A stretch of 64,000 nt of DNA from Enterococcus sp. (GTDB taxonomy: Bacteria; Bacillota; Bacilli; Lactobacillales; Enterococcaceae). The position numbers were made by a program, and so were the translations under genes. The notes below the pieces were generated by a model that worked only from the letters and a program-made list of their open reading frames with translations, did not search any database and was not told the DNA's origin. The DNA is taken from assembly GCF_022711995.1 (NCBI RefSeq), contig NZ_JALAHI010000116.1:41459-105458 (forward strand), written 5' to 3'. Of this stretch, positions 51,950-63,728 are shown one piece after another (the stretch's first letter is position 1; each line of letters starts with the position of its first letter).

Positions 51950-53533
51950 ATGAAAAATTGGAAAAAAGGATTGATGGGAGCAGCAATCATTGGCTTAGGC
52001 TTTTTCTTAGCCGCTTGCTCATCAGGGGGTACAAAAGATTCATCAGCAAATACAACGACGCCAAAGGGGGATAGTGACACATTCACCTATGCAATTAACG
52101 GGGATCCTTCTTCAACGAATCCGATCAATACGAGTGACCGTTGGGGATTGACCGTGACGAATATGATCTACTCCCCTTTAGTGATCGTCGAAGCTGACGG
52201 AACGACGCAAAATGCATTAGCTGACTCGGTTGATCCAGCTGAAGACGGTTTGTCTCTGACTGTTCATTTGAAAAAGGATGTGAAGTGGTCAGATGGTGAA
52301 GCATTTACTGCAGATGATGTTGTGTTTACCTATGAACAAAAAGTGAAAAAAGAAAATGGCAACGCCGATGCTTTGTGGGTTGACGGAAAACCAGTCAGCA
52401 TTGAAAAAGTTGACGACTACACGGTGAAATTTGTCTTGCCTTCTGCAAGTGCCGCAGCACTAAATAATATCGCAACAGAGACATATATCATTCCTGAACA
52501 TATTTATAAAGATGTCACTGATTTTTCGGTCAACGAGTTGCCGGAAAAACCTGTAGGTACTGGCCCTTATAAATTAAAGGAATACAAACGCGGCGAGTAT
52601 TTCACTTTTGAAGCCAATGAAAACTATTATGGTGGCGAAGCTGCCATCAAAAATGTGACATTACGAATCATTGAAAGCAACGATACAGCCAAAGTCGCTT
52701 TGCAAAAAGGTGAAGTGGATGCAGCCGTTGTCTTGCCTTCTGATATTGAAGATTTAGATGACTCAACGATTTCCATTTATCCGTATTCTGAAAATCGGAT
52801 TGGTTATTTGGGATTGAATACGAATTCCGATGCCTTGAAAGATGTCAAAGTACGACAAGCCGTTCTTTATGCTTTGAACAAAAATGAAATGAATCAAGCA
52901 GCTTATTTGAGCGATAAGTATTATGATACGCCTTATTCATTCTTGCCACCTAACAATCCTTTTGCGACCGAAGACGTGGAAAAATACGAGACAAATGTTG
53001 AGAAAGCCAAAGAATTATTGCAAGAAGCCGGTGTATCCAATCTGCAACTAAATCTGGCATTTACTTCAACAGATCCAGCGCAAACGATTCAAGCAACACT
53101 GATCCAACAACAATTGCAACAAGCCGGAATCAATGTTTCATTAGAGGGGGGCGATGGCACAGCGATCTTCACTGAATTGAAAAAAGCCGGCTCCACAAAA
53201 TACAACCTATTTTTAGGCGGCTATATTATGGGAAATGATCCTGACCTTTATGGTATGCTATTTAAAACGGATGGCAGTTCCAATTATTTCCAAACAAAGA
53301 ACAAGACGACGGATGAGTTGTTTGCCAAAGCCGCAGTTGAGTTAGATGAAACCAAACGGAAAGAGTTGTATAATCAGCTGCAACAAGCGATTGCGGATGA
53401 TGCCCGCATCTATCCAATCGTAGACAATAAAAAGATTTTAGCGGTCAACAAGCGTATTGCCAATGTAGAAGAAGCGGGCTTGATTCCAATCTATACATTT
53501 GAAGATATGTCAAAATTGACGATCAAGGAATAA
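51950..53533 (+). CDS. Peptide ABC importer, substrate-binding lipoprotein (OppA/AppA-like)
   Basis: This 527-residue family-5 extracellular binding lipoprotein has a signal peptide with lipobox FFLAAC, Ser/Thr-rich linker, then the family core: TFTYAINGDPSSTNPI, LKKDVKWSDGEAFTADDVVF, GTGPYKLKEYKRGEYF, VRQAVLYALNK and LTIKE end. It would capture oligopeptides for the OppBCDF machine encoded downstream. The start follows AGTAGGAGAACG. It is separated from oppB by a 284-base structured region. Confidence 0.93.
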   Translation: MKNWKKGLMGAAIIGLGFFLAACSSGGTKDSSANTTTPKGDSDTFTYAINGDPSSTNPINTSDRWGLTVTNMIYSPLVIVEADGTTQNALADSVDPAEDGLSLTVHLKKDVKWSDGEAFTADDVVFTYEQKVKKENGNADALWVDGKPVSIEKVDDYTVKFVLPSASAAALNNIATETYIIPEHIYKDVTDFSVNELPEKPVGTGPYKLKEYKRGEYFTFEANENYYGGEAAIKNVTLRIIESNDTAKVALQKGEVDAAVVLPSDIEDLDDSTISIYPYSENRIGYLGLNTNSDALKDVKVRQAVLYALNKNEMNQAAYLSDKYYDTPYSFLPPNNPFATEDVEKYETNVEKAKELLQEAGVSNLQLNLAFTSTDPAQTIQATLIQQQLQQAGINVSLEGGDGTAIFTELKKAGSTKYNLFLGGYIMGNDPDLYGMLFKTDGSSNYFQTKNKTTDELFAKAAVELDETKRKELYNQLQQAIADDARIYPIVDNKKILAVNKRIANVEEAGLIPIYTFEDMSKLTIKE

Positions 53534-53542
53534 GAATGGTTG

Positions 53543-53799
53543 TGACAGAAGTCAAACAAAGAAAAAAAGAGTGACAGCTACTCGTTGCTTTTGATCAGAG
53601 CAGCTGTATCAAGAGGTTAGAGACTGGAACATCAAGGCGAAAGGATCTGCAGGGGCTGAGCTAGGAAGACAGGACGCATAAAGCGGATGTTTTCCTAGCT
53701 GTCATCTGCCTCTTTCCGAGAGCTTCCTTGAGCCATTGCTCTGACTGGCTTCTTGAGGTATTCTGTTTTTCGTTTAGCCGACTTCTGTCATGCTTTTTT
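53543..53799. repeat. Structured inverted repeat between oppA-like and oppB-like genes
   Basis: TGACAGAAGTC (53543-53553) is mirrored perfectly by GACTTCTGTCA (53780-53790), and a T run follows the right arm. Inside are smaller stems ACAGCT/AGCTGT (53582-53615) and GCTAGGAA/TTCCTAGC (about 53662-53701), and imperfect matches continue along the long arm. No gene is seen. It could reduce read-through so that more binding protein than permease is made. Confidence 0.65.
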
Positions 53800-53817
53800 T
53801 GAGAGAGAAGGAGAGAC

Positions 53818-54780
53818 ATGTTTCGATATATTTTAAAACGAGTATTGCAGGCGATTCCTTTATTATTCGTTATTTCATTTATCGTTTTTTCATTGATCCA
53901 CATTGCCCCCTATGATGTCATTGATTCAATCACTACGCCAAATATGAGCCAAGAGCAGATTGATCTTTTACGGCAACGTTACGGTTTGGATCAACCTTTT
54001 TTAGTGCAATACTTTTTATGGATCAAAAATATTTTTTCTGGTAATTTAGGTTTTTCTTTAGTTTCACAAAACAGTATTTCGCAAGAGTTGGCCGTCCGAA
54101 TCCCAAATACGATTCGCTTGGTTTTACCAGCTTACTTAACGGCGTTACTGTTAGCCATCCTTTTAGGATTACTAGCGGCAGCCAATAAAGGTAAGATTTG
54201 GGATCGAATCATTGATGGGGTCGCTTCTTTAGGAATTGCAGTACCTACTTTCTGGTTTGCAATGATCTTGATCTATCTTTTCGGGTATCGACTAAATCTA
54301 TTTCCGATTATCGGAATGTATACGGTGGGGCAAGAAGGCGATTTTAAAGACTTCCTGCAACATTTTATTTTGCCTTACGCGACATTGACAGTCGCCTTTT
54401 TCCCAGAATTGACTCGTTACATTCGGGCGTCAGCGACCCAACAAGTATCGGAGGATTATGTCGTGGTGCAGCAAGCGTTTCATGCCACGAAATGGCAGAT
54501 TTTCAGTCGTCATATCAGCCGTAATGTGATGATTCCCATCGTGACGCAAATAGGTCTGGCATTGCCCATGTTAGTGACCGGAGCAATCATTACAGAAACG
54601 ATCTTTGGTTGGCCAGGGGTCGGTCCTTATTTGATGAGTGCGACGAAAAGTTTAGATTACCCAGTGATCATGGCAATTATGTTGTTGTCGGCGACTTTAG
54701 TTATTTTAGGTAATTTATTAGCCGATGTTCTTTATTCGATTGTTGATCCAAGAATACGAAAAGGAGGGAGTCGTTCATGA
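53818..54780 (+). CDS. Peptide ABC permease 1 (OppB-like)
   Basis: This 320-residue OppB/DppB-type permease has six membrane segments. The N-terminal MFRYILKRVLQAIPLLFVI segment, the cytoplasmic loop YIRASATQQVSEDYV and the EAA-like helix before TEFIFGWPGVG-type C-terminal sequence (here TETIFGWPGVGPYL) are normal. The start follows GAAGGAGAGAC. It overlaps oppC-like by 4 bases. It forms half of the translocation channel. Confidence 0.93.
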   Translation: MFRYILKRVLQAIPLLFVISFIVFSLIHIAPYDVIDSITTPNMSQEQIDLLRQRYGLDQPFLVQYFLWIKNIFSGNLGFSLVSQNSISQELAVRIPNTIRLVLPAYLTALLLAILLGLLAAANKGKIWDRIIDGVASLGIAVPTFWFAMILIYLFGYRLNLFPIIGMYTVGQEGDFKDFLQHFILPYATLTVAFFPELTRYIRASATQQVSEDYVVVQQAFHATKWQIFSRHISRNVMIPIVTQIGLALPMLVTGAIITETIFGWPGVGPYLMSATKSLDYPVIMAIMLLSATLVILGNLLADVLYSIVDPRIRKGGSRS

Positions 54781-55607
54781 ATCGGTTACAAAAGGTCAGA
54801 AAAGCGATTTTTTCTTCTCCTGTGTATGCATTTTCGTTCCTCTTTTTGACAGTGTTGATTTTGCTTTCCCTCCTGGCACCATTGATTCCGATTGATCCCA
54901 ATGCGACGGATGTCAGCAATATGTCTCAAGCACCTAGCTGGGGGCACTTGTTCGGTACCGATGAAGTGGGACGGGATTATTTCATTCGAGTGGTTTATGG
55001 TGGACGGGTTTCGTTATTAGTAGGGGTCTTGGCGATGACCACAGCGACACTGATTGGCACAGTGGTGGGATTAACGGCTGGTTATTTTGGTGGTTGGGTG
55101 GATAGCATTCTCATGCGCCTTGTAGACGTTTTGTCTTCCATCCCTTGGCTAGTATTGGTTATTGTACTAAGTGTCTTTTTACGTCCGGGATTAACCACGA
55201 TCATTATTGTGATCGGCGGCTTTTCTTGGATGAATATTGCCCGGTTGATTCGGGGAGAAACGCTGGCTGCCAAAGAAAGAGAATATGTTGTTTATGGAAA
55301 ATTTATTGGTCGTTCAGCGATGAGTATTATTTTTCGGCATATTTTTCCGTCAGTTTTGCCCACACTGATTGTTGCAGCTTCTGCTAGTATTTCAGGAGCA
55401 ATCATGACAGAATCGGCATTGAGCTTTTTGGGTATGGGAATCCAGCAACCCATGGCTTCCTGGGGAAGTTTGTTACAAAATGCCCAAAGTAGTCTGCAGC
55501 GAGCGCCCTATATGGCGATCTTACCCGGTTTATTCGTGATCTTTACCATTTATTCGTTTAACAATCTTGGAGACATGATCAAGCGTGTCTTGCAGCGGGA
55601 GGTGTAG
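54777..55607 (+). CDS. Peptide ABC permease 2 (OppC-like)
   Basis: This 276-residue OppC/DppC-type permease has six membrane segments. Family blocks: HLFGTDEVGRDYFIRVVYG near residue 55, the EAA loop ARLIRGETLAAKEREYV, and TESALSFLGMGIQQP near the C terminus. It starts inside the preceding gene's end with GGAGGGAGTCGTTC as ribosome site. It ends 5 bases before oppD-like. Confidence 0.93.
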   Translation: MNRLQKVRKAIFSSPVYAFSFLFLTVLILLSLLAPLIPIDPNATDVSNMSQAPSWGHLFGTDEVGRDYFIRVVYGGRVSLLVGVLAMTTATLIGTVVGLTAGYFGGWVDSILMRLVDVLSSIPWLVLVIVLSVFLRPGLTTIIIVIGGFSWMNIARLIRGETLAAKEREYVVYGKFIGRSAMSIIFRHIFPSVLPTLIVAASASISGAIMTESALSFLGMGIQQPMASWGSLLQNAQSSLQRAPYMAILPGLFVIFTIYSFNNLGDMIKRVLQREV

Positions 55608-55612
55608 CAATC

Positions 55613-56476
55613 ATGACAGAATCGTTATTGACGGTAAAAAACTTGAATGTGGTTTTTCATAGAAAACAAGGCAATCAACAACTGCTGAAAGAAATCAACT
55701 TAGATATTCCTAAAGGACAAGTAGTGGGAATCGTTGGAGAATCAGGCAGTGGAAAAAGCATGACGATGAAGAGTGTGATGGGAATTTTACCAGAAAAGAT
55801 TTCGGATTCCTTTGATTCTTTTGTTTTTGACGGAAAACCAGTGACAGATCGCCATAAATTGCCTTTGGCGATGATTTTTCAAGACCCGATGACCTCCTTG
55901 AACCCTTTGCGCACCATTGGGTATCATTTAATCGAAGTCATTCGCAGAGGTCAAAAAATGTCAAAAAAATCCGCGCAAGCAATCGCTATTGCAGAGTTGG
56001 CCAAAGTAGGGATCCCGCTTCCAGAACAGCGGATGAAACAATACCCCCATGAACTATCCGGTGGAATGCGGCAGCGGGTCATGATTGCTATGGCGCTGTT
56101 GGCACAGCCAAAATTATTGATTGCAGATGAGCCCACGACGGCACTAGATGTAACGATCCAAGCCCAGATTTTGCTATTGATCAAAGAGTTGCAGCGGGCC
56201 GAGCATCTTTCAGTGGTATTAGTGACCCATGACTTCGGCGTTGTGGCGGGAATGTGTGATTATATCAAGGTCATGTATCAAGGCAGGATCGTGGAAGAAG
56301 GCACCACCGAAGAAATTTTCTACCAGCCGCAGCATCTTTATACGAAAAAACTGCTGCAAGCAGCCCATTTAGGGGAAACGGTAGTCTTTGACTATCATGA
56401 AGAACTTCCAGATGTGTTGCAGGTTCGAGAAATCACAAAAACGCATCGTGTCTGGGAAGGAGTGACCAACAAGTGA
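55613..56476 (+). CDS. Peptide ABC ATPase 1 (OppD-like)
   Basis: This 287-residue ATPase has Walker A GESGSGKSMT, Q-loop IFQDPMTSLNPL, signature LSGGMRQRVMIAMAL, Walker B LLIADEPTTALD and H-loop VTHDFG. It is shorter than the usual 330-350 residues of OppD; the C-terminal oligopeptide region with the iron-sulfur-like cysteines is mostly absent. Overlaps the next ATPase gene by 4 bases. It energises import together with OppF. Confidence 0.92.
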   Translation: MTESLLTVKNLNVVFHRKQGNQQLLKEINLDIPKGQVVGIVGESGSGKSMTMKSVMGILPEKISDSFDSFVFDGKPVTDRHKLPLAMIFQDPMTSLNPLRTIGYHLIEVIRRGQKMSKKSAQAIAIAELAKVGIPLPEQRMKQYPHELSGGMRQRVMIAMALLAQPKLLIADEPTTALDVTIQAQILLLIKELQRAEHLSVVLVTHDFGVVAGMCDYIKVMYQGRIVEEGTTEEIFYQPQHLYTKKLLQAAHLGETVVFDYHEELPDVLQVREITKTHRVWEGVTNK

Positions 56477-57363
56477 AAGAATTGATCCGAGTTGAAGCAG
56501 CCAGTAAAACTTTCCGCAGTAAAAATTGGCGTGGGGTAGTGACAGAAGTTCAAGCGGTAGATAATGTCAGCTTAACGATTCATCAAGGTGAGACGCTAGG
56601 TCTTGTGGGGGAATCAGGTAGCGGGAAAACGACATTGGGTCGAAGTATTTTAAATCTTGAAACATTGTCTTCCGGTAAAGTTTTCTTTGAAGGACAAGAA
56701 TTGGCTCATTTGTCAGCAGAGGAACAAAAAGACCGTTATCAGCAGATGCAAGTGATTTTTCAAGATCCTTATTCGGCATTGAACCCCCGGATGACGGCAC
56801 TGGAATTAGTGATGGAACCATTGCTGAAAGAAACGAAAGATGCCGCACGAGCGAAAGCAAAAGAAATCCTGGCCATTGTCGGAATCAAAGGGGAAGATAT
56901 CCATAAACTTCCTCGAAACTTCAGTGGCGGCCAACGTCAACGGATTGGGATTGCTCGAGCAGTGGTCAATCGACCAGCCTTTGTCTTGTGCGATGAACCC
57001 ACATCGGCATTAGATGTCTCGATTCAAGCCCAGATCATTCAATTGCTTTTGCAACTGCAGCAAGAATTTTCTTTGTCTTACTTGTTCATCTCCCACGATT
57101 TGTCTGTCATCCGCCATATCAGCGACCGGACAGCTGTGATGTATCAAGGGAAACTGGTTGAATTAGCGCCGACAGAACGGCTTTTTGAGAGCCCACAGCA
57201 TCCTTATACCAAGAAACTGTTAGCGGCAGCCCCTATTGCTGATCCCATTCAAGCACGAGCTGCGATGGCTAAAAAGAATATTCAAGAAACGATCACATTA
57301 AGTCCGATCTTTGACTGGGTAGAAGTCGAAGAAGGACATTTCGTAAGGAGAGAGAAACAATGA
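56473..57363 (+). CDS. Peptide ABC ATPase 2 (OppF-like)
   Basis: This 296-residue partner ATPase shows Walker A GESGSGKTTLG, Q-loop IFQDPYSALNPR, signature FSGGQRQRIGIARA, Walker B FVLCDEPTSALDVS and H-loop ISHDLSV. The C-terminal oligopeptide-transporter extension (QHPYTKKLLAAAPIADP) is present. It overlaps both neighbours by 4 bases. It completes the oppBCDF set; all five Opp subunits are in one direction. Confidence 0.93.
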   Translation: MKELIRVEAASKTFRSKNWRGVVTEVQAVDNVSLTIHQGETLGLVGESGSGKTTLGRSILNLETLSSGKVFFEGQELAHLSAEEQKDRYQQMQVIFQDPYSALNPRMTALELVMEPLLKETKDAARAKAKEILAIVGIKGEDIHKLPRNFSGGQRQRIGIARAVVNRPAFVLCDEPTSALDVSIQAQIIQLLLQLQQEFSLSYLFISHDLSVIRHISDRTAVMYQGKLVELAPTERLFESPQHPYTKKLLAAAPIADPIQARAAMAKKNIQETITLSPIFDWVEVEEGHFVRREKQ

Positions 57364-61186: not shown

Positions 61187-62374
61187 ATGAATAAAAAAGG
61201 AATCTTTATGGGTGGGTTCATTCTGCTCCTATTGCTTATTATAGGAGGAATGAAGTGGCTGATGAATCAACAGACAAATCAAGAAGAGCCAGCGGCATCT
61301 GTCCAAACGTCTTCATCGACAAGCAGTGCCTCAAGTAGTAGTGAAAGTACAGCGAGTGTGGAGGAAGAACCAACGATCGCTGATCAGATGGCCCACATGA
61401 GTTTGGAAGAAAAAGTTGGACAATTATTTTTTGTTCGGGTACCTGAAATCAATCAACTGGAGGATATCCGCGACTATCATTTAGGTGGTTACCTGTTATT
61501 TGGTCGAGATACCGAAAACGAAACAGCAGAGTCATTGAAACAAAAGATTCGAGACTACCAGAAAGCTAGTACCATCCCTCTCTTGATCGGAATGGATGAA
61601 GAAGGAGGAACTGTCACTCGAATCAGTCGCAACCCCGCTTTGGTACCAGCTCCTTTTCTATCTCCTCAGCAGCTTTACCAGCAAGGCGGTTGGCAAGCAG
61701 TTGACGAGGACACCGCTCAAAAGGCCGCGATTTTCCATGATTATGGAATTTCTACTGGATTGTTTCCGGTCGCAGATGTGTCAACAGATCCCCATTCGTT
61801 TATTTATGATCGAACGATTGGCTTAGATGCAGCAGGCACCAGCGAATTTGTTCGCAGAACGGTTGCAGTGTTAAAAGAAAACCAGATCGGTTCAACGTTG
61901 AAACATTTTCCCGGCTATGGCAACAACCGGGATTCGCATGTAGAGATCGTCACGGATGATCGCTCGTTGAAAGAACTGGAAACGAAAGACTTTTTGCCCT
62001 TCGAAGCAGGGATCAAAGCTGGAGCAGATAGTATTTTAGTATCCCATAATATTGTCACCAGTATTGATGCCAGCGTGCCAGCTTCCATCTCAAAACCCGT
62101 CCATGAACTCTTGCGAAATCAACTGAATTTTAAGGGAGTGATCATGACAGACGACATGGATATGGCTGGTTTAGCCGACTTTATTTCACAATCGGAAGCC
62201 GGATTGAAAGCGTTGGAAGCTGGAAATGATTTAGTGATGTCTTCTACGTATCAGCAGCAGATTCCTGTCATCATAGCTGCTATCAAGCAAGGGGACTACT
62301 CAGAAAAAGCCCTTGATGCTTCTGTTAAACGAGTGTTGGAGTGGAAAGCCTCGCTAGGATTAATCAACGAATAA
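61187..62374 (+). CDS. GH3 beta-N-acetylhexosaminidase, membrane-anchored
   Basis: The 395-residue protein has an N-terminal membrane anchor (residues 5-25, no lipobox cysteine), a Ser/Thr-rich linker of about 45 residues, then a GH3 catalytic barrel. Markers are GMDEEGGTVTRISR, KHFPGYGNNRDSH with the histidine acid/base of the NagZ-type group, and MTDDMDMAGL with the nucleophile aspartate. It would remove beta-1,4-GlcNAc from peptidoglycan fragments or glycans at the cell surface. The single GH3 domain without the second domain fits NagZ-like enzymes. The start follows AAGGAGAAACAT. Confidence 0.92.
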   Translation: MNKKGIFMGGFILLLLLIIGGMKWLMNQQTNQEEPAASVQTSSSTSSASSSSESTASVEEEPTIADQMAHMSLEEKVGQLFFVRVPEINQLEDIRDYHLGGYLLFGRDTENETAESLKQKIRDYQKASTIPLLIGMDEEGGTVTRISRNPALVPAPFLSPQQLYQQGGWQAVDEDTAQKAAIFHDYGISTGLFPVADVSTDPHSFIYDRTIGLDAAGTSEFVRRTVAVLKENQIGSTLKHFPGYGNNRDSHVEIVTDDRSLKELETKDFLPFEAGIKAGADSILVSHNIVTSIDASVPASISKPVHELLRNQLNFKGVIMTDDMDMAGLADFISQSEAGLKALEAGNDLVMSSTYQQQIPVIIAAIKQGDYSEKALDASVKRVLEWKASLGLINE

Positions 62375-62447: not shown

Positions 62448-63335
62448 TTATCCAAAGGGTTCTTCGGTAGGTACGATGGCTAAAAGAACACTGGTGGCTA
62501 AGTCGGAGAGTTCATTCGCATAAGCTGATTGACCTAAAAAACGCAAGACTTCAAGGGATCGTGTAATCGTTTGCTTCCCACTATCGATTTCACCGTGAAA
62601 AAGTGCGCTGATCCCCTCAAAATAGCGAATCATCAAACGAATCCGATCATTGTCTAAAGGGATGTTTTTAGTCATATAGAAAAGAATTTGTTCAAGCTGA
62701 TCGATTTGCTTCCGATCAATGAACAGGAAGGCCGCGTTAGTCAATAGCTTTGAATAAATATGATAATTGAGGCTAAGCAAGTTATTATAAAATTCTTGCT
62801 TATTTAATTGTTCGATTTGAAATAAAATGTATTCGTCTGTAAACAGAAACATGAGATTGACGAAAATCGTGATTTCAAATTTGCCCCACGTTTCGATTCG
62901 ATTGAGGTAGTCTTTGATCGATGTCTCAATTCGTTCGATTTCATCAGTAGTATGTATCTGTCCTTTTTTCATCAGAATCAAATAGTATTGGCTATAAAGC
63001 AAATAATAATAAAAGTCTTGTGTCTCTTGATAGAGCCCTTTTGACGCTTCGATCAAACAAGCTAACTGATCGAAATCATGCTGATAATAAGCTGTGTGAA
63101 ATTGTTTGGAAAGCTGCTTCTTTTCATTTAACTGATTGTTCGTCAAATGGTATTCGAATTCCTCAAGAGTGACATTTAAACGATCGAGGTACTTGTAAAG
63201 AGTATCGAAAGCGATCCGATGCCCTTTTTGTTCAAATGAAGCCAGTGTACTGCGTTCAGATATGTCTGCTGCCAGCTTTCTTTGAGAGAAATTCCGTTCT
63301 GTTCGTAATTTTTTAAGCAATTGATTGGCTTCCAA
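62448..63335 (-). CDS. Rgg/PlcR-like (RRNPP) regulator
   Basis: This 295-residue regulator has an N-terminal HTH_3 domain (residues 1-65: RNFSQRKLAADISERSTLASF) and a C-terminal all-helical TPR-like region of about 230 residues, the Rgg/MutR layout. Such proteins bind a small imported peptide and switch a nearby promoter. Start: TTG at 63335, eight bases after TAGGAGG; the upstream GTG (63356) lies inside the palindromic operator and has no ribosome site. It is divergent from a 23-residue peptide gene starting 115 bases away. Autoregulation through the palindromes between them is likely. Confidence 0.85.
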   Translation of the reverse strand: MEANQLLKKLRTERNFSQRKLAADISERSTLASFEQKGHRIAFDTLYKYLDRLNVTLEEFEYHLTNNQLNEKKQLSKQFHTAYYQHDFDQLACLIEASKGLYQETQDFYYYLLYSQYYLILMKKGQIHTTDEIERIETSIKDYLNRIETWGKFEITIFVNLMFLFTDEYILFQIEQLNKQEFYNNLLSLNYHIYSKLLTNAAFLFIDRKQIDQLEQILFYMTKNIPLDNDRIRLMIRYFEGISALFHGEIDSGKQTITRSLEVLRFLGQSAYANELSDLATSVLLAIVPTEEPFG

Positions 63336-63347
63336 AAAAAAACCTCC

Positions 63348-63369
63348 TAGGTGCACCTAAATTTAGGTG
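63348..63369. promoter_or_regulatory. Palindromic operator between the Rgg-like gene and the peptide gene
   Basis: CACCTAAATTTAGGTG (63354-63369) is a perfect 16-bp palindrome. The overlapping TAGGTGCACCTA (63348-63359) is a perfect 12-bp one. Together they hold three alternating copies of the TAGGTG half-site, next to the regulator's ribosome site and upstream of the peptide gene. Confidence 0.75.
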
Positions 63370-63449
63370 GACGAAAAAATAGTCCAAATCAACTATAGTT
63401 ATATTTTCCATTTAAACTAAAGGAAAGTCAATTAAAGGAGGAAAAGAAA

Positions 63450-63521
63450 ATGTTCCAATTTTTTGGATTTCCATGGGAAGTAGTTGAAAATATGATCAAC
63501 ATTTTTTCTTTCTTACGCTAA
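63450..63521 (+). CDS. 23-residue peptide, candidate pheromone of the Rgg-like regulator
   Basis: The ATG at 63450 lies eight bases after AAAGGAGGA. The peptide reads MFQFFGFPWEVV then ENMINIFSFLR, ending at TAA 63519-63521. It is hydrophobic, with an amphipathic C-terminal half (ENMINIFSFLR), and lacks the lysine-rich start of SHP precursors. A TATAGT -10 candidate is at 63394-63399, without a good -35 box, as expected of an activator-dependent promoter. The position, opposite an RRNPP regulator and behind a palindrome, suggests a signalling peptide. Alternatives are a leaderless bacteriocin-like or type I toxin peptide. Confidence 0.7.
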   Translation: MFQFFGFPWEVVENMINIFSFLR

Positions 63522-63560: not shown

Positions 63561-63599
63561 ACATATAAATAAGTGGTTTCTAGTAATAATTTACTATTT

Positions 63600-63728
63600 G
63601 CTCCTCCAAAATTGGTGACCTCTCCCCAGAGTCCTGTATATCAGGCTTTCCAGGCTGTCAATTTTAGGAGGAAACAGGAACTTGAACAGAAGAAAACAGA
63701 AAAACAGCGATTTCTGTTTTTTTCTTTT
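63600..63728 (+). ncRNA. Structured non-coding segment ending in a terminator
   Basis: TCCTCCAAAATTG (about 63602-63614) pairs with CAATTTTAGGAGGA (63659-63672), with a CCTG/CAGG hairpin inside. A strong terminator follows: AAAACAGAAA (63693-63702) with TTTCTGTTTT (63711-63720) and a T run. No gene lies in it. It could be the 3' part of the peptide transcript or a separate small RNA. Confidence 0.5.

Follow-up and report, generated by a model that had tools for sequence, protein, structure and literature searches.

We describe a 23-codon reading frame in Enterococcus that diverges from a gene of the Rgg family. With a probability of about 0.7, we consider its product likely to be a leaderless signal that is bound by the Rgg, which then activates the peptide's own promoter. 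This reading rests on sequence: the pair itself, its conservation in 4/6 genomes of the genus, a peptide core that is shared across genera, the geometry between operator and −10 box, and co-variation between peptide and sensor domain. In the mechanism we propose the peptide would be translated, and would either leave and re-enter the cell or act within it. Its W-E-V core would then bind a TPR-like pocket of the Rgg, and the peptide-bound Rgg would serve as an activator at the inverted repeat TGGAC-N9-GTCCA.

The regulator and the divergent reading frame

Positions refer to the window, the whole stretch of 64,000 nucleotides that was analysed. Our genus sample consists of six genomes: the window's own, E. 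gallinarum (G002), E. casseliflavus (G001), E. innesii (G003), Enterococcus sp. 8G7_MSG3316 (G005) and RIT-PI-f (G004). The features of the intergenic region and the two genes are as follows.

62448..63335, minus strand: gene for a regulator of the Rgg/GadR/MutR family by profile matches; TTG start, 295 aa including the initiator Met
63343..63348, minus strand: Shine-Dalgarno sequence AGGAGG of the regulator, 7 nt upstream of the TTG (63335-63333)
63348-63359 and 63354-63369, no strand: overlapping perfect palindromes; imperfect in E. gallinarum, absent in E. casseliflavus
63368..63386, no strand: conserved inverted repeat TGGAC-N9-GTCCA, the predicted Rgg operator; in 6/6 genomes, with one variable base (A/G)
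63403..63431, minus strand: predicted sigma-70 promoter of rgg, TTGACT-17-GAAAAT; TTGACT and the AAAAT of the −10 kept in 6/6 genomes
63413..63418, plus strand: predicted −10 of the peptide promoter, TAAACT, 27 nt from the operator and with no good −35; TAAA[CA]T in 6/6 genomes
63434..63441, plus strand: Shine-Dalgarno sequence of the peptide frame, AAAGGAGG, 8 nt before the ATG; duplex energy −11.7 kcal/mol
63450..63521, plus strand: peptide reading frame MFQFFGFPWEVVENMINIFSFLR, divergent from rgg; 23 codons, with the W-E-V core at residues 9-11

A preliminary description of this DNA had reported a TTG-start Rgg-like regulator and a divergent 23-residue frame with a strong ribosome site, and we recover the same coordinates, starts and Shine-Dalgarno sequences. 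By its profile matches the regulator is assigned to the Rgg/GadR/MutR (RRNPP) family. The Rgg C-terminal domain (Pfam PF21259, 67 bits against a cut-off of 27, 2.2e-18) and an N-terminal HTH (HTH_3, PF01381, 32.3 bits against 23, 1e-7) both score above their cut-offs, as does the NCBIfam model TIGR01716 (79.1 bits against 36.9, 3.6e-22). Sequence matches include RopB (E 1.6e-9) and 9lth, the NrpR of S. salivarius (E 6.5e-13). An AlphaFold2 model built from a 15-sequence alignment (pLDDT 87.5, pTM 0.70) has the SHP receptor Rgg2 as its top Foldseek match in the PDB (E 8.7e-9), with NrpR, PrgX, Rgg144 and ElrR among the further matches, and the regulator is predicted to have their TPR-like alpha-helical peptide-binding fold. 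A plasmid collection queried with the DNA of the locus gave no match, and the Rgg protein matched only one record there, a partial 32.7% match from E. mundtii.

The peptide has no lysine or arginine in its first 8 residues and one in all 23, in agreement with the earlier remark that it lacks a cationic leader. By the Nei-Gojobori method the frame differs from that of E. gallinarum by 2 synonymous changes and 1 non-synonymous change (dN/dS 0.09), and from that of E. casseliflavus by 6.5 synonymous and 12.5 non-synonymous changes (dN/dS 0.25). By these ratios the changes are of the purifying type.

Conservation and probable loss within the genus

The Rgg is found in 6/6 genomes, the five others being 86, 63, 63, 58 and 56% identical to that of the window. 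A pattern made from the first ten codons of the peptide, allowing up to 3 mismatches, has matches in 4/6 genomes, and every match adjoins the Rgg. The peptide is MFQLFGFPWEVVENMINIFSFLR in E. gallinarum (22/23 residues identical to the window's) and MFDFFSFPWEVVELMANVFSFFK in both E. casseliflavus and E. innesii. In the alignment the frame itself holds and divergence starts right past the stop codon.

The remaining two genomes, G004 and G005, count against a signal. Although the Rgg, its promoter and the inverted repeat persist in both, neither has an ATG, GTG or TTG with a ribosome site in frame with the retained TGGGAAGT bases (Trp-Glu-Val). G005 has a 17-codon ATG frame, which is in another frame and has no ribosome site. 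The preliminary description took a missing frame beside a kept regulator as evidence against the pair; this holds in part, for G004 and G005, and four of the six genomes keep the peptide. Between G004 and G005 the rgg dN/dS is 0.08, with synonymous sites near saturation. Since the outgroup receptors of E. caccae and Ca. E. avicola (the latter with a TTG start) have peptides with a W-[ED] pair, a loss of the peptide in G004 and G005 is the simpler reading.

A glycosyl hydrolase family 3 (GH3) gene, at 61187-62374 and convergent with rgg, is also missing at this place in G004 and G005 and present in the other four genomes. It could have a function linked with the peptide; G004 and G005 are one lineage, so this is a single observation.

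Peptides with a W-[E/D]-[V/I/L] core beside other Rgg relatives

The W-[ED] core first recurred in MEFEPFGPWEINPFKN, the divergent 16-aa reading frame of an Rgg paralogue (32-33% identity) in E. casseliflavus and E. innesii, and then in loci of other Enterococcaceae. We collected Rgg relatives from 105 Enterococcaceae genomes (33 of them positive at E <= 1e-20) and from a contig scan that gave 71 loci; the resulting 126 loci hold 100 distinct Rggs, each treated as one row. The rule called for a frame of 8-40 codons on the divergent strand, 60-190 nt out, with an anti-Shine-Dalgarno energy of at most −5.5 kcal/mol and a W-[ED] pair.

Such frames lie 87-134 nt from the Rgg start in 22/100 upstream regions and encode 18 distinct peptides, so the rows are not independent. 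Their hosts are Enterococcaceae, Lapidilactobacillus, Paenibacillus and Bacillus-like genera. Dinucleotide shuffles (200) gave a mean of 0.335 rows and a maximum of 3. The same rule found 1/100 on the opposite strand, 1/100 on the same strand at 191-449 nt, and 0/97 downstream of the Rgg on either strand. Together with the recurrence at the same place, and with similar sequence, in four of the six genus genomes, this excess over shuffles marks the peptide frame as more than chance. The earlier proposal of a peptide paired with an RRNPP regulator is supported, and relatives conserve the pair. Of the 49 rows contributed by the contig scan alone, none of which belonged to the set in which the motif came to light, 7 are positive (mean 0.17 and maximum 3 in 300 shuffles); this set is a partial hold-out only, because the exact rule (W-[ED], energy threshold and distance) was fixed after all rows had been seen. 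The W-[ED] pair is followed by V, I or L in 22/22 cases (in L120, after its second pair), a residue that the search rule does not contain. Examples are the following.

MYPNSPWEVEVF: three genomes
MYPDSPWEVEVF: E. dispar
MFDFFEEKIWEVVPPQ: a further W-[ED] peptide
MIFEIHEDGIWEVVLPL: Lapidilactobacillus achengensis, with a Shine-Dalgarno energy of just −5.7
MYLYAVGDNIWELVPSL: E. durans
MNPYTWEIEPPQKIEK: two genomes
MIDFFILIWDIIGGN: Lysinibacillus piscis

The peptides of L043 and L111 depend on TTG and GTG starts. Eight rows were listed with a Trp and no W-[ED] pair; five of these (L044, L051, L097, L100 and L101) are counted as look-alikes, in which the Trp peptide lacks the acid, and L105, L134 and the second frame of L120 were set aside.

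The other side of the count is that 78/100 upstream regions have no W-[ED] frame, which also argues against a signal. They include a clade of 13 rows inside the wider group (L046, L048, L050, L060-L063, L065, L083, L084, L089, L092 and L094). Several members of this clade stand back to back with a gene whose secreted-looking product contains an AAD..D-MPDIS region.

In a tree of 96 Rggs, 17/20 receptors with W-[ED] peptides fall into one clade of 51 rows (support 95/92), which also includes many receptors without such a peptide; the tree leaves out L058, L111, L117 and L134, whose Rgg reads are fragmentary, and several long branches make placements unsure. Across 17 pairs (L111 and duplicate peptides dropped), similarity between peptide cores is correlated with similarity of the C-terminal sensor domain at a Mantel r of 0.75 and with that of the HTH at 0.62 (partial r 0.55), with common ancestry feeding all three values. 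By this measure the cores co-vary with the sensor domain. The preliminary description had looked to the C terminus of the peptide for co-variation with the TPR pocket. Co-variation with the sensor side is what we find, but what recurs from genus to genus is the internal W-E-V and not the C terminus.

The same peptides bear on where the signal would act. The 17 tabulated W-[ED] peptides have 10-23 residues, and in 15/17 the first eight positions hold no basic residue. Together with the missing leader this would fit a peptide that binds Rgg inside the producer without export, as an intracellular cofactor or a positive-feedback switch and not as a cell-to-cell signal. Leaderless SIP and LCP peptides are, in the excerpts of PMC10518010, secreted and re-imported by unknown routes, which speaks against taking the lack of a leader as lack of export. 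We consider a purely intracellular role unlikely, if still deserving of serious weight.

Predicted operator and promoters

Around the operator the conserved form is GTGGACG[A/G]AAAAATAGTCCA in 6/6 genus genomes. TGGAC-N9-GTCCA, with R at the variable base, has one exact match per genome, at the rgg locus, in 6/6. The perfect palindromes that the preliminary description had pointed out in the shared upstream region do exist in the window, but they are not this conserved operator, being imperfect in E. gallinarum and absent from E. casseliflavus.

A looser expression (GGACG or GACG-N7/8-[GA][TA][ACT]C) is present in 13/22 W-[ED] systems, in 2/2 peptide-less members of the genus, in 0/5 rows with Trp only and in 4/71 others, where shuffles average 0.11, 0.02, 0.01 and 0.35, respectively; this enrichment is descriptive, because the expression was derived from these same sequences, and the 13 rows include near-duplicates. 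It fails in 9/22 W-[ED] loci. Within a search span of 18-35 nt, into which no geometry was built, the best −10 sits 27-29 nt past the operator in 11/13 operator-bearing loci; in the remaining two the distance is 23 nt, and a TAAACT stands at 28 nt as an alternative. The best −35 in these 13 loci scores 2-3 of 6, and none scores above 3. Since the −35 is poor, the promoter would be activator-dependent. In silico the operator of the window lies at or just upstream of the −35 position of the peptide promoter, as is the case for RopB and its LCP peptide, and the spacing to the −10 is the layout reported for RopB-type activators (PMC10518010, in excerpts).

A scan for promoter-like sites found 6, where shuffles gave 5.0, so the rgg promoter alone is not beyond chance. 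The operator lies downstream of this predicted promoter, which fires towards it, and feedback of the Rgg on its own gene through the same operator is therefore expected.

Extra operator copies were seen at two places. On a 3.5-kb contig of E. gallinarum (L146:533-552) a copy with perfect arms, and a −10 candidate at the 27-nt gap, precedes a secreted-looking reading frame with homologues in 5/105 family genomes; a second E. gallinarum homologue, the only one inspected, has no operator site. The second place is in the genome of the window itself, where a copy with a single mismatch lies at a contig edge (L151:15-34) that cuts off its downstream side. As rough arithmetic gives a chance expectation of ~0.1-0.4 copies per genome, these are leads only.

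The predicted transcript downstream of the peptide

Three further features follow the stop codon.

63574..63595, plus strand: conserved element TGGTTTC-N5-ATAATTTAC in the predicted 3' UTR; 6/6 genomes, with one substitution in G001 and G003
63601..63672, plus strand: hairpin CTCCTCCAAAATTG / CAATTTTAGGAGGA in the 3' UTR, predicted by folding
63690..63727, plus strand: intrinsic terminator hairpin of the peptide transcript, predicted by folding

The 3' element is retained even in the genomes that lost the peptide, and each of the six folds has hairpins after it. Between the window and E. gallinarum the hairpin at 63601..63672 shows, by eye, two double changes at paired positions and a third pair that has turned into G-U. 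A terminator consensus scan found none and did not list the hairpin at 63690-63727. Furthermore, the synonymous sites of the peptide segment are less diverged (2/11.8 changed) than those of rgg (134/180), which points to selection on something besides the amino acids. The kept element, the paired changes and the low synonymous divergence make an RNA function a live rival or companion of the peptide. In its strong form, the plus-strand transcript would be mainly a small regulatory RNA under Rgg control, its 3' half doing the work and the peptide a lesser passenger that can be lost. This form has to contend with peptides of the same core in other genera that co-vary with their receptors, and Rfam holds no family that matches at the peptide transcript; we judge it improbable. 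The two roles can coexist.

The idea that the element is a repeated genomic motif was rejected, as there are few copies beyond its own locus, where it has 0-1 mismatch in each genome: one other site with 1 mismatch occurs in each of G000, G003 and G004, G002 has two such sites, and G001 and G005 have none. In G004 and G005 (L011 and L012), ATAATTTACT or AATAATTTACT, as in the 3' element of the window, recurs upstream of another Rgg paralogue.

Neighbouring genes and possible targets

The right edge of the window is the end of the contig, and the regulated target had been suspected beyond it. The relatives do not support this: by prediction the peptide transcript stops at its terminator, and the right-hand neighbour that they share (L163-L167), a gene for a 348-aa protein without a Pfam match, is not adjacent throughout the genus. 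In G004 and G005 a distance of 0.7 kb separates it from the operator. In E. gallinarum it comes 2.5 kb after the peptide, on the far side of a 551-aa gene; the distance in E. innesii is about 17.6 kb, in E. casseliflavus it sits on a different contig, and nothing in the assembly of the window matches it. Next to the operator in G004 and G005 only, and far or absent in the other four, it is no adjacent target genus-wide; it may still be one in some species. Synteny on the left is common to all six genomes, except for GH3. With no adjacent gene common to the whole genus, targets of the Rgg would lie elsewhere.

Outside the genus sample the neighbours vary. Secreted-looking proteins without an informative Pfam match follow, by eye, the W-[ED] peptides of L059 and L115 and the W-only peptides of L044, L097 and L100. 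In E. caccae (G070, L137:3661-7224) the gene for a W-E peptide lies immediately ahead of a radical-SAM gene that somewhat resembles YydG, after which come genes for a 227-aa protein and an ABC transporter; in Enterococcus sp. MSG2901 the peptide gene is followed by one for an ABC transporter and one for a radical-SAM protein. With no other small frame with a strong Shine-Dalgarno sequence listed at the E. caccae locus, this set is possibly a new RiPP cassette. Such neighbours are what one would look for if the peptide were a substrate or product controlled by the Rgg (a RiPP precursor or a small antimicrobial) and not a signal. They were recognised downstream of just these two of 22 peptide loci (by eye over 0.2-2.9 kb, with eight proteins profile-scanned) and nowhere in the genus of the window, and the E. 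caccae radical-SAM protein falls far below the YydG cut-off (75.6 vs 300 bits), so that we hold this reading to be highly improbable. That the frame is an attenuation leader peptide or a chance frame is barely credible: it does contain a Trp and is followed by hairpins, one of them terminator-like, but it has a single Trp codon and no universal downstream gene, and the recurrence of the motif across families, with the shuffle and strand controls, stands against both.

Some 5-10 kb to the left of rgg there is an oligopeptide-type ABC operon (51950-57363) with a family 5 binding protein, two permeases and two ATPase reading frames; the permease and ATPase genes are syntenic in relatives. By position alone, it is a possible import route for the peptide. 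THF riboswitches (Rfam RF01831) were seen near an ECF-type transporter gene in G005 (L007:763-860) and G004 (L008:737-834).

Relation to known systems

SHP precursors have a basic leader at their start and are matured from the C terminus. The pair described here resembles the Rgg/SHP systems (Rgg2/Rgg3 and Rgg1358) in regulator family, fold, the group I divergent arrangement and an acid followed by aliphatic residues. Unlike the SHPs, the 23-residue peptide has no basic N-terminal leader with a hydrophobic pheromone at the C terminus; it is leaderless and its core is internal. ComR/XIP (ComRS) also combines an Rgg-type receptor with a short Trp-containing peptide, and comS sits downstream of comR. 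WW peptides adjoin two of the Rgg relatives (L097 and L101), and many XIPs carry WW in Table 1 of PMC13361665. None of the confirmed peptides in that table has W-[ED]-[VIL].

The RopB/LCP systems, of which the S. pyogenes SIP is an example, share a tiny leaderless frame divergent from a receptor of the Rgg fold (the leader being judged here from composition alone), a predicted operator by a poor −35, and varied neighbours that include biosynthetic clusters and ABC transporters (PMC10518010, in excerpts). LCPs, however, are mostly of 8-10 residues, all of them mature, and highly hydrophobic, whereas the W-[ED] peptides have 10-23 residues (23 in the window) and an acid after the Trp. A few longer LCPs are reported in the same excerpts, which also name candidate LCPs for two enterococci: those of E. 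casseliflavus contain charged, polar and proline residues, and those of E. durans exceed the usual length. Some of the W-[ED] peptides may be among these candidates, which limits any claim of novelty. No description of the W-[ED] motif was found in the portions available of PMC10518010, PMC13361665, PMC10075063, PMC12700828, PMC12445099, PMC9765709 and PMC9426450. RopB/LCP and Rgg/SHP are the closest known systems, and we regard our pair as a variant of these, possibly overlapping the published LCP tables.

We also entertain a wider hypothesis, to which we give a little less than an even chance: W-[E/D]-[V/I/L] peptides would join the SHPs and LCPs as a third major class of Rgg signal, leaderless, of 10-23 residues, recognised by way of an internal core of Trp, acid and aliphatic residue, and spread over the Enterococcaceae and beyond. 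The transcript in the genus of the window would then also be a regulatory RNA, and one sister lineage would have lost the signal and kept the receptor as a listener.

Reading frames this short are easily overlooked, with the result that an enterococcal Rgg may pass for an orphan. Given a brief motif at a constant position, a good number of these regulators become testable ligand-receptor pairs, peptides for synthesis suggest themselves, and there is a candidate operator to examine. The results have implications for the relation between leaderless peptides and SHP-like signals, and for the control of some secreted-protein and radical-SAM gene sets of enterococci. If the peptide is the signal of its Rgg, these loci would represent a largely uncharted set of bacterial communication peptides.
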